From assembly GCA_009889515.1 (NCBI GenBank), contig WUQR01000139.1, positions 248,001-312,000 of the forward strand: a DNA stretch of 64,000 nt, in the 5' to 3' direction. The notes below the pieces were generated by a model that saw only the letters and a program-made list of their open reading frames with translations, did no database searches and was not told the origin of the DNA. The DNA is from Nitrososphaerota archaeon. Its GTDB lineage: Archaea; Thermoproteota; Nitrososphaeria_A; Caldarchaeales; Calditenuaceae. Below are positions 54,454-61,056 of this stretch, in pieces (positions within the stretch are counted from its first letter, which is position 1; each line of letters opens with the position of its first letter). Made by a program: the position numbers and the translations under genes.

Positions 54454-55008
54454 ATGCTGGGCACGGGATGGGGTGCAATACTCCTCCTGCTCTACCTAAC
54501 AGCGCCATTCCTAGTCATCTTCACACTATTACTGCTCCTCGCCTTCAGGAGGGGTAGGAGCTTGTCTGGTGCGGTTCTGGGCGAGAAGGCAGCTCGGGGG
54601 ATGGAGGTAGCTTGGCTGATGGGGGTTGGCATAGCTTGGGCAGTGATTAACTTGGTCAGCATACCTTGGATTCCATGGCTCCAGCCACTAGCAGCCACAC
54701 CGGGTCAGACACCCTCAGAGCCCGTGCAGGCCGTAAACGTTGAAGCCTTCATGTGGGGTTACACGATCGACACCTACGAGGTCAAGGCCGGGACTGTGAA
54801 GTTTGTGGCGAGGGCACATGACACCATCCACAGTCTAACAATTTACTCGCCGCGCGGGGAGATACTAGCTACTGTGATGCTGTTGCCTGGCATGAGGGAG
54901 GAACTGGTCCTAAATCTAGTGGAGCCGGGCGAGTATGTCATCAGGTGCTTGGAGTTCTGCGGGGACGGGCACTCGGCGATGCTATCAAAGTTCAAGGTGG
55001 TGGGTTAA
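54454..55008 (+). CDS. Heme-copper reductase subunit II with CuA site
   Basis: The electron-entry subunit. It has two N-terminal helices, then a cupredoxin domain. All CuA ligands can be seen: H126 (DTIHS), C165, E167 (backbone carbonyl), C169, H173 and M176 in RCLEFCGDGHSAM. Length is 184 aa. A TATA-like taatataat (about 54419-54428) lies about 28 bases before the ATG. It is followed after a one-base gap by the catalytic subunit gene. With the NOR-like features of that subunit, this could be part of a CuA-containing nitric oxide reductase (like NorY) rather than an oxidase. Confidence 0.88.
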   Translation: MLGTGWGAILLLLYLTAPFLVIFTLLLLLAFRRGRSLSGAVLGEKAARGMEVAWLMGVGIAWAVINLVSIPWIPWLQPLAATPGQTPSEPVQAVNVEAFMWGYTIDTYEVKAGTVKFVARAHDTIHSLTIYSPRGEILATVMLLPGMREELVLNLVEPGEYVIRCLEFCGDGHSAMLSKFKVVG

Positions 55009-55009
55009 G

Positions 55010-56506
55010 ATGGCCTCGCAAATCAGGCTTGAGGACCTGACATATTATCCGAGACTGATGATTCTCTCCTCGATTGCCTGGTTCTTCGCTGGTGGAGCCG
55101 CAGGACTTGCAATGGTGCTCGCTCATCTAACAGGCGCTCTAAGAATAGCGGACTACAACATGCTCCTCACATTCCACGGAGTTGTGATGCCTTTCGGAGG
55201 ACTTTTCCAGCTCATGATGGGCCTATCCCTACTGAGGGTAGGATTCTGCTACGGTAAATCTGTAAAGGGGCCTCTCGTGAAAGCTTCATACTTCACCCTT
55301 AACGTTGGGCTTCTTCTAATACTCGCAGCAATATTCGTCTTCGGAGTAAGGACAAGCTATACGTTAATGTTCCCTCTTCCCGCTTCAGGTGCATTGAAGG
55401 GGCTCTGGTCCCTCGAGGGCCTCACTATATTTGTTTGGGGCATAATCCTAGTCCTTGCCGTTATCATTACATTATATCCTGCGTCGCTCGCGAGACTAAT
55501 GTTCGGTGGAAAGACCCAGGAAGCCTTCGTGCTAGAGCGGTTCGTGGGAACCCTCAATCCCGCGGGTATGGCGGGTATGCTCCCCTACATATTCATCATC
55601 CCCCCACTCGGCACCGCAATCGCCATTGGAGCAGTAACAATAGGACTCGCGCTCCTCGGCGCAATCCCCCTAAGCTCGGCGGGCTGGGTCTTACACCCCC
55701 TAAACTTCAACTATCCCTTCTGGATCTGGGCTCACAACTTGATGGAGGCGATGGGTATAATGGCGATAGGGACTGTCTATTGGCTAATCCCGCGGTATAC
55801 CGCGGTATTGAGAAGCTCTGAAGTTGTGGAGCCGAGGCTCTACAGTGAGAAGCTGGGAATCTTCGCAATAGTTTTCTACTCAACCGCGGCGGTAATAGCT
55901 TTTCCACACCACCTCTTCACCATGCCCACGTCACAGCCGGCAGGGCTTAGCTACACGGGCCAGATAGCCAGCTGGTTGACAGGCTTTGGGGCGGCCTTTT
56001 CCGTCTTTAACGTCCTTGCAACTGCGTATGCCTTTGGTCTGAGGCTCACTCCGGCCTCCCTAGCGGCCATGCTCGGTTTTGCCGTCTACATAGTCGATGG
56101 CTTCCTCGCGATGCAGCTGGGGACAATTGGCTGGGCCTACAGGCTCCACGGAACCTATGCGGTAACCGCCCACTTAATGACAATACTCCTCGCAGTATCC
56201 CTGATCTGGATAGGCGCCCTCTACCACAGCTACAGGCTCCTCTTTGGAACAGAAGTGAACAAGAAGCTGGCATACATCCACATAATATTGACGGCTGTGG
56301 CGGCGCTAGGCCTATTCTACTTCATGGCCTTCATGGGAGGTGCGGGAACACCCAGAAGAGCATACCCACTCCCAATACCCAGCGATACTGGTGTATTGGG
56401 CCTTGTAGGCTTCGGGGTACTCCTCGCAGCGGCTCAGGCCATATTCCTAGCCCAGCTCTTCAAGTCCCTGAGTAAGCCACATCACTACATAAGTGATACG
56501 GTCTAA
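55010..56506 (+). CDS. Heme-copper reductase subunit I, probable NO reductase type
   Basis: A 12-helix protein (498 aa) of the heme-copper superfamily closest to B-type (ba3-like) enzymes. H56 (FHGVVMPF) is a low-spin heme ligand. CuB ligands are H242, H300 and H301 (FPHHLFTMP). H388 (TAHLM) should bind the active-site heme. At the place of the cross-linked Tyr (HPxxY) there is E246 (AHNLMEAMG), as in nitric oxide reductases with HxxxE. The second low-spin heme ligand (HFH form) is M390. It could instead be a degenerate oxidase. The start is ATG 55010, one base after the subunit II stop. Confidence 0.85.
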   Translation: MASQIRLEDLTYYPRLMILSSIAWFFAGGAAGLAMVLAHLTGALRIADYNMLLTFHGVVMPFGGLFQLMMGLSLLRVGFCYGKSVKGPLVKASYFTLNVGLLLILAAIFVFGVRTSYTLMFPLPASGALKGLWSLEGLTIFVWGIILVLAVIITLYPASLARLMFGGKTQEAFVLERFVGTLNPAGMAGMLPYIFIIPPLGTAIAIGAVTIGLALLGAIPLSSAGWVLHPLNFNYPFWIWAHNLMEAMGIMAIGTVYWLIPRYTAVLRSSEVVEPRLYSEKLGIFAIVFYSTAAVIAFPHHLFTMPTSQPAGLSYTGQIASWLTGFGAAFSVFNVLATAYAFGLRLTPASLAAMLGFAVYIVDGFLAMQLGTIGWAYRLHGTYAVTAHLMTILLAVSLIWIGALYHSYRLLFGTEVNKKLAYIHIILTAVAALGLFYFMAFMGGAGTPRRAYPLPIPSDTGVLGLVGFGVLLAAAQAIFLAQLFKSLSKPHHYISDTV

Positions 56507-56513
56507 ACCCCCA

Positions 56514-57776
56514 CTATTCGCCCAGGCTATGCATCATATGGAGCGTCATTACTATGCTGCTCAGGTAGAGGGCCGAGGCCGCTATCGTTGCTAGTGGCAC
56601 GCCCGGCGACCCTGCTAGAAACCATGCAATCCTCAGCACGTTGCCAGAGTTGAGAAGGGCTGCAGGATAGAGTGTGAGACCAGTGTAGGGCATTCTCGCC
56701 GACATGAGGCCGGGCATCAGGATTGGCGCGTATGCGAGGATCATGTTGCCTACAAACCCGACGGCTAAGGAGTGTATGTATGCGTCTCTGAGGACATACC
56801 AGAATGGATGGGCCAGCAGCAGGCTGGCCGAGCCCACCGCCGCCAAGACACACCCTGCTAGGAGCCAGATTGAGGCAGCCCTATAGAGCGCCGAGAAGTA
56901 GAGGTACCTGACCCTGTCCCTCTCCCTCATCCTAGCATACTGCTCACCCGACTTGACCCGTCTGAGGGCGTCGACAGAAACCACCCAGACAACGGATGCC
57001 AGTAGGTATCCCAGGGATGCGGCCAGCTCCAGAGCCTCACTTCGGAGCGGCACAGCGGCAGAAGCCGCGGCGGAAGATGCGACATGAAGGGGCGTGAGAA
57101 GCCACCAAGCCCTCCTCCTCAACCTAATATCCACCCGGAAGTGGACCGTCTTTATCCCAACACCCATCACCATCCCAGCAGGCGTCCCAAGGAGGAGTAG
57201 CAACGGCAGACCGGGCCTGCCGAAGACGTGGCCACCATCGAGCTCCGCGAACATGGTTAGGGCTAGGGAGAGAGGCATAAGAATCATCGAGGACGATATT
57301 AGTGGGTCGGCTGCAGCCAGGGGGCCCGACGGCCTACCCAGCACCCTCACAGAGTAAAATGCCGCAGAGGAAGCGCCGGCCACTGAGGCCGCGTAGCTGA
57401 GGAGCCAGACAACAGTGCCCGGCTCAGCAAAGGCTGAGAGCAACACGCCTAAAGCTATAGCTATCGGTGAAGCGGCTCTGAGGCGGAGGTAGCTCGTGTG
57501 CTCCTCATTCCTGAAGCGCTGGACAAGGACCATAGCCACGGAGGCGATGAACACGTAGACGAATCCGAAGAGCATGAGTTTGGGGTGGGACAAGACTAGG
57601 GGTGTGAAGGGTAGGGCGCTCGAAAGCGAGAGAAGCCAAACCGCGCCCACAACAGCCCCCAGAACGCCGCTAACCGTCGCCAACGCCACACCCGGTATGA
57701 GTATGAGCCGGGCAGACCGGAGCCTCGCCTCCAAGACCGCCAACCAGACCTCAAGCGTCAAAATAAATCTCAGCAA
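56514..57776 (-). CDS. NnrS-like polytopic membrane protein
   Basis: A protein of 420 aa with about 12 helices. Histidines lie in SHPKLMLFGFVY (helix 2 region), KTVHFRVDIR and AYIHSLAVGFVGNMILAYAP; the last is like HALAVGAIG in NnrS, a heme- and copper-binding membrane protein linked to nitric oxide metabolism. The relation is by pattern and is not certain. The 3' end faces the heme-copper subunit I gene with 7 bases between, so a functional link is plausible. The TTG start is unsure. Confidence 0.55.
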   Translation of the reverse strand: MLRFILTLEVWLAVLEARLRSARLILIPGVALATVSGVLGAVVGAVWLLSLSSALPFTPLVLSHPKLMLFGFVYVFIASVAMVLVQRFRNEEHTSYLRLRAASPIAIALGVLLSAFAEPGTVVWLLSYAASVAGASSAAFYSVRVLGRPSGPLAAADPLISSSMILMPLSLALTMFAELDGGHVFGRPGLPLLLLLGTPAGMVMGVGIKTVHFRVDIRLRRRAWWLLTPLHVASSAAASAAVPLRSEALELAASLGYLLASVVWVVSVDALRRVKSGEQYARMRERDRVRYLYFSALYRAASIWLLAGCVLAAVGSASLLLAHPFWYVLRDAYIHSLAVGFVGNMILAYAPILMPGLMSARMPYTGLTLYPAALLNSGNVLRIAWFLAGSPGVPLATIAASALYLSSIVMTLHMMHSLGE

Positions 57777-60745: not shown

Positions 60746-61056
60746 AAGGGGGCGTGCGGCCCATAGTCCTCCTTCTGTTTTAGGCGGGATTGGTCTTCTC
60801 GGCTCCACGCGGGCCTCGCCGGCGCGTCTCATTGGCCCGGCGCGCCTTTCCCCGTCAGGGTCGCCCGTTTCATCCATTCTCCACCACTTGTCGCCGCCTC
60901 GGGTTGGCGGGTCATACTCATCTGCGGTGGAGGGGTCTCGTTTCTGTGGCGTTGCCGCGGGTCTCCCCGCCCACCTCGCGGTGGCTGACTGCACCGGTTG
61001 GGGGGGAGGAACTTCCTCGGGAGTGCCCCGTGGCCCGCCCAGCCGCTCGCCCCCAA
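60746..61056 (-). ncRNA. rnpB: RNase P RNA
   Basis: The catalytic RNA of tRNA 5' maturation, about 310 nt. On the minus strand the 5' end gggggcg (61054-61048) pairs with cgccccc (60754-60748), forming P1. Inside are the conserved patches gaggaagttcctcc (CR-I region), cacagaaacgagacc (CR-II/III region), gatgaaacgggc, and acagaaggaggactatgg (CR-V region). The GC-rich stretch has no credible protein. A TATA box (61079-61086) lies about 26 bases before the 5' end. Its ends are set by the P1 helix and may shift by a few bases. Confidence 0.88.

Follow-up and report, generated by a model that had tools for sequence, protein, structure and literature searches.

A CuA-linked heme-copper gene pair of Caldarchaeales with glutamate at the cross-linked tyrosine position: a putative nitric oxide reductase

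Does a heme-copper subunit I in which glutamate takes the place of the cross-linked tyrosine reduce NO rather than O2, and, if so, to which of the named nitric oxide reductase (NOR) families does it belong? The gene raising this question lies in the window, the whole stretch of 64,000 nucleotides analyzed here, which derives from the 2.1 Mb genome of a hot-spring archaeon of the order Caldarchaeales. In named records, its closest relatives are two uncultured Calditenuaceae, archaeon HR02 and Candidatus Calditenuis fumarioli.

Gene pair and conserved residues

The putative catalytic subunit of the NO reductase, subunit I, is encoded at 55010..56506 on the forward strand by an intact open reading frame of 498 aa with one terminal stop. 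The adjacent gene for subunit II (54454..55008, forward strand) ends one base before the ATG of subunit I. Subunit I matches Pfam COX1 at 1.3e-34 and scores 65 bits against TIGR02891, where the cut-off is 671; subunit II matches NCBIfam CoxB at 2.2e-13 and 50 bits (cut-off 148). The AF2 model of subunit I adopts an oxidase fold (pLDDT 86.6, pTM 0.90), its PDB matches being cytochrome oxidase subunit I chains with TM values of 0.75-0.85. Five of the six His of the heme-copper framework are kept, the sixth being M390.

A family alignment used to scan 84,980 genomes returned 73 loci. Identity amounts to 63-88% in Caldarchaeales, 39-45% in Chloroflexota and 35-40% in Proteobacteria, which contribute many members. 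The archaeal members belong to Calditenuaceae and Caldarchaeum, and the proteobacterial ones include Sedimenticola, Sulfuritalea, Rhodobacteraceae and MAGs from oxygen-deficient zones. Plasmid searches retrieved no family members, only distant oxidases. Shorter COX1-like sequences also occur: the own genome encodes a 181 aa protein resembling the C-terminal part only (L004, C139:1051516-1051725), and several other archaeal genomes hold short matches in frames of 155-207 aa.

The N-terminus of subunit II contains two transmembrane segments by inspection, and its cupredoxin domain would be the point of electron entry. The set of CuA ligands (H, C, C, H, M) is complete, comprising the motif C165-LEF-C169-GDG-H173-SA-M176 at 54946..54981, found in CLEFCGDGHSAM, together with H126 in the translation (54829..54831; both forward strand). 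Each of the 70 subunit II proteins that adjoin a family subunit I shows the pattern CxxxCxxxHxxM.

The initial annotation had read the CuB helix of subunit I as A-H-N-L-M-E, with H242 and E246, and had listed the CuB pair H300/H301 and the heme ligand H388 as retained; all of these agree exactly with the translation of 55010-56506. H242 (55733..55735), the predicted first CuB ligand, and E246 (55745..55747), which replaces the cross-linked Tyr, are invariant in 74/74 sequences, partly by construction, because HNLMEAM was one of the two peptide patterns that drew the family scan. No such effect applies to the predicted low-spin heme ligand H56 in helix II (55175..55177; 71/71), the CuB pair H300-H301 (55907..55912, codons at 55907 and 55910; 74/74), the predicted high-spin heme ligand H388 (56171..56173; 73/73), M390 or the CuA ligands. 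Across archaea, Chloroflexota and Proteobacteria, metal-site residues, E246 and M390 are unchanged in the 71 to 74 sequences that cover them. All these codons, and those of Y257 and M390 below, lie on the forward strand.

Aligned against aa3-600 (6koc), caa3 (2yev) and mycobacterial aa3, a profile built from 32 family members places E246 on the column of the cross-linked Tyr of these solved oxidases. A chance substitution or sequencing error at this position is rejected, because Glu is invariant in the family and dN/dS against two close relatives is low, at about 0.08-0.09 (dN 0.070/dS 0.753 and 0.074/0.95). We also considered a Tyr supplied from another helix. In C-type oxidases, the cross-linked Tyr sits in helix VII, at position -6 relative to the HH pair. 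This position is Tyr in 7 of 8 C-family references, the eighth being a cNOR-like sequence, and Ala or Ser in all family members, which rules out such a replacement. The other invariant Tyr, Y257 and Y360, sit away along the helices. Y257 (55778..55780; 74/74) follows E246 by 11 residues, which equals what we take to be the spacing of Y237 and Y248 in the K-channel of ba3, and it may belong to a proton channel.

Since the pair is CuA-linked, carries HxxxE and has lost the cross-linked Tyr, its best reading is a membrane NO reductase that converts NO to N2O with electrons from CuA, to which we assign, from the sequences, a probability of about 0.7. Alternatively, it could be a terminal oxidase, O2-reducing or general, that does without the Tyr cofactor, or an oxidase retained to act on another small molecule. 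Its fold, its CuA site and its CtaB-like and Cu-ATPase neighbors are indeed typical of oxidases, and the presence of A-type or cbb3 genes in the bearers examined was counted for this alternative, not against it. Nevertheless, 34/34 Tyr-type A/B enzymes in the alignment retain Tyr at the E246 column, while the family has neither this Tyr nor any replacement, making the oxidase alternative unlikely.

A second substitution, absent from the initial annotation, is found in helix X, which reads LHGTYAVTAHLM in subunit I and LHDTYxVVAHFH in oxidases. M390 (56177..56179; invariant in 73/73) stands at the second His of the oxidase HxH, the low-spin heme ligand, changing the motif to HxM. In ungapped alignments, Met390 aligns on the oxidase His; its exact column is uncertain because the 82-sequence MAFFT alignment opens a one-residue gap there, and either way HxH becomes HxM. 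Judging from this position, M390 is probably an axial ligand of the low-spin heme together with H56. We know of no His/Met ligation of a low-spin heme in heme-copper enzymes. The loss of one low-spin heme His might instead suggest a heme protein of oxidase origin that acts as a sensor or is non-catalytic. Considering the invariance of the catalytic-site and CuA ligands and the strong purifying selection, we regard this as very improbable.

COX1-like proteins missing the HH pair were encountered at four other loci (L121, L124, L125 and L126). They measure 465-540 aa and carry GGGHxLQF and PAHYHG; at three loci (L121, L124 and L125) they lie a few kb from eNOR-like genes.

Position among nitric oxide reductase families

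In the 82-sequence tree, whose sampling left out bNOR, the family forms one clade with 100% bootstrap, and its archaeal, Chloroflexota and Proteobacteria subclades receive 100% each. This clade is separate from eNOR (Q), sNOR (N), gNOR (D/D) and the A-, B- and C-type enzymes. The phylogeny with B-type oxidases and NOR types that the initial annotation had proposed accordingly finds subunit I outside the ba3 oxidases; the relation to B-type oxidases implied there finds no backing in the tree, as the deep nodes are weak (58-66% support) and the clade could attach to either the A or the B side.

According to the table in PMC8756737, oxidases have Y at the Tyr position, whereas cNOR and qNOR have E, sNOR and CuA-NOR N, eNOR Q and gNOR D; none of the CuA-linked families listed there carries E. 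HxxxE had been presented as a mark of the CuA lineages sNOR, eNOR and gNOR, a claim at odds with this table, which gives it to cNOR and qNOR. The broader suggestion of a CuA-carrying NO reductase fares better: CuA, HxxxE and the absence of the Tyr all hold, while the named lineages do not fit, sNOR having Asn, eNOR Gln, and gNOR the D/D site and no CuA.

With cNOR and qNOR, the family shares HxxxE (HNLME in the family) at the non-heme metal site and the proposed NO reduction. They differ in electron entry, as cNOR and qNOR have a cytochrome c subunit or a fused quinol domain, whereas the family has a CuA subunit (70/70), and in the helix-X Met. In the tree, the family lies far from the cNOR-like L117 and from the C-type enzymes. 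Owing to this placement, its HxxxE would most simply be convergent with that of cNOR and qNOR, subject to the weak deep nodes.

The CuA two-subunit plan is shared with sNOR. The nearest tree neighbors are L122 (L122_4, an sNOR-like HxxxN sequence) and L173, a Tyr-bearing archaeal oxidase, with a joint support of 60%; L122_4 is thereby the nearest NOR candidate, although weakly. sNOR enzymes have Asn and HxH where the family has Glu (E246) and HxM. A common clade with sNOR is not rejected by the AU test (p 0.34), and the same applies to joining the family to gNOR (0.35) or to the A-type enzymes (0.09).

An acidic residue at the Tyr position is common to the family and gNOR. Asp in place of one CuB His is known from certain NOR types (PMC3475470), and gNOR combines it with Asp at the Tyr position; the family has H242 and E246. 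The own genome contains such a gNOR-like subunit I (L002, C139:1230431-1231942, reverse strand), with the D/D site in FWWGLDLIADG. It differs from the family in having Asp for the first CuB His, Asp instead of Glu and both helix-X His. Its subunit II has no CuA cysteines (STEYSGPQHPWM), in contrast to the intact CuA of the family. Relatives of L002 occur in many Caldarchaeales genomes.

As published, eNOR is likewise a two-subunit NOR with a cupredoxin subunit. It differs by Gln at the Tyr position, and a common origin with the family is rejected (AU p 0.001); in the tree, the eNOR-like enzymes (H-x-x-x-Q) group with ba3-like oxidases in a separate clade. A CuA-fed NOR with biochemical proof is bNOR/qCuANOR (CbaA; PMC3475470). 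It resembles the family in its CuA feed and differs by Asn at the Tyr position, which is E246 here.

As the residues exclude eNOR, sNOR and gNOR, nNOR is left by elimination. This family was reportedly proposed by Murali et al. (2024, PNAS). In PMC11388526, it is cited beside sNOR and gNOR among the proposed B-family-related NORs, and PMC10359470 describes an nNOR HMM applied to metagenomes of oxygen-deficient zones, the environment of some of the MAGs that contain family members. We therefore consider it probable that the family is the already named nNOR, even though nNOR residues or sequences were not found in open papers. Family and assignment would then already be published, which is compatible with the NO reductase mechanism. 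More tentatively, and with less than even confidence, the family could be a distinct NOR family that combines CuA entry, an independent cNOR-like HxxxE and a His/Met heme and supplies the missing denitrification step of Caldarchaeales. The Met ligand would in that case give the heme a higher potential, with electron transfer tuned for NO.

Neighboring genes and denitrification context

At 43 bacterial family loci, the flanking sequence was long enough to show the neighbors. A heavy-metal P-type ATPase (Cu-ATPase) is encoded at 41 of them, a UbiA/CtaB-like prenyltransferase at 26 and a DsbD_2 membrane protein at 20, which suggests an enzyme with copper and, probably, farnesylated heme. At the archaeal paralogue L020, the next gene encodes a plastocyanin-like cupredoxin, a possible electron donor.

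The class III alcohol dehydrogenase FrmA, which is also the S-nitrosoglutathione reductase, is encoded within about 6 kb at 13 of these 43 loci; Gfa and FrmB are each found at 12. The gammaproteobacterial family genes flanked by Gfa, FrmA or FrmB are L057, L063, L065-L068, L071, L072, L076 and L077. These neighbors fit the handling of S-nitrosoglutathione or formaldehyde, and hint at an enzyme with the same chemistry that detoxifies NO or S-nitrosothiols under stress instead of serving as a respiratory NOR. However, FrmA, FrmB and Gfa together point equally to formaldehyde, all three are absent beside the archaeal family loci, and the nosZ partners described below favor respiration. A primary role in detoxification thus appears improbable.

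Two further features were recorded in the window. A gene at 56514-57776 on the reverse strand encodes a polytopic membrane protein of 420 aa with many conserved His; within the genus, it is oriented convergently to the putative NOR genes. This protein has no Pfam or NCBIfam hit; its resemblance to NnrS is weak (hhalign probability 7.6%), and its AF2 model has a pLDDT of 36. The Archaeal RNase P RNA (Rfam, 156 bits) lies at 60752-61050 on the reverse strand, overlapped by spurious ORFs.

Returning to the reading as a respiratory NO reductase, two organisms reported to have gaps in denitrification carry the family gene. The strongest circumstantial evidence comes from the C. fumarioli MAG, for which nirK and nosZ were reported and no NO reductase was identified (PMC10547907). 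This MAG (JANVYR, 98% complete, 3 contigs) carries the family gene L019, its other PF00115 matches being an A-type oxidase and one short weak stretch only. For Ca. Desulfobacillus denitrificans, expression of nirS and nosZ was observed and norBC was reported missing (PMC8402940); its complete genome carries the family gene L046 and the eNOR-like gene L124. We infer that in both organisms the family probably carries out the NO-reducing step that published genome studies had reported as absent from denitrification.

The 44 Caldarchaeales genomes include five with the family, six with nosZ and three with both. nosZ is present in 3/5 bearers vs 3/39 non-bearers (Fisher p 0.013, relatedness ignored), and in 6/14 genomes with a family or gNOR-like gene vs 0/30 others (p 0.0004, relatedness again ignored). 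Overall, 29/41 family-bearing genomes have nosZ. In one bacterial bearer family, the co-occurrence (5/6 bearers) is not significant because the matched background is high (82/151); in another bacterial order, nosZ is found in 60/198 genomes, which serves as a loose background only. Since a further NOR of eNOR-like or cNOR-like type is present in most bacterial bearers examined, the family gene could have another job.

A search of the window's own genome found no nosZ, and no denitrification genes were seen beside the family gene. The own genome does encode a NirK-like protein (L147, C139:720453-721235, reverse strand), a two-domain multicopper protein fused to a C-terminal cupredoxin, adjoined by a Sco-like gene. 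It scores 164 bits, below the curated cut-off of 296, and Ser occupies the position of the catalytic Asp.

Proposed function and significance

For the proposed NO reductase, electrons would pass from a reduced copper or heme carrier to the CuA of subunit II, from there to the low-spin heme (H56 and probably M390) and on to the high-spin heme (H388). At the adjoining CuB (or FeB) site, formed by H242, H300 and H301, two NO would be joined and reduced to N2O. As in the HxxxE of cNOR, E246 probably binds or neutralizes the non-heme metal and handles protons. Efficient splitting of O2 is not expected at this site, because the Tyr radical donor is gone.

The potential to produce N2O may be missed in genome surveys, because these proteins score far below the NCBI CtaD-type cut-offs. 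The family also raises the biochemical question of the role that a His/Met low-spin heme would play in a heme-copper enzyme, and whether HxxxE has arisen twice for NO chemistry. If the proposed function is true, at least two candidates for an NO reductase exist in an anammox-reactor bacterium described as having none, and the denitrification gap reported for Caldarchaeales in 2023 would be closed.
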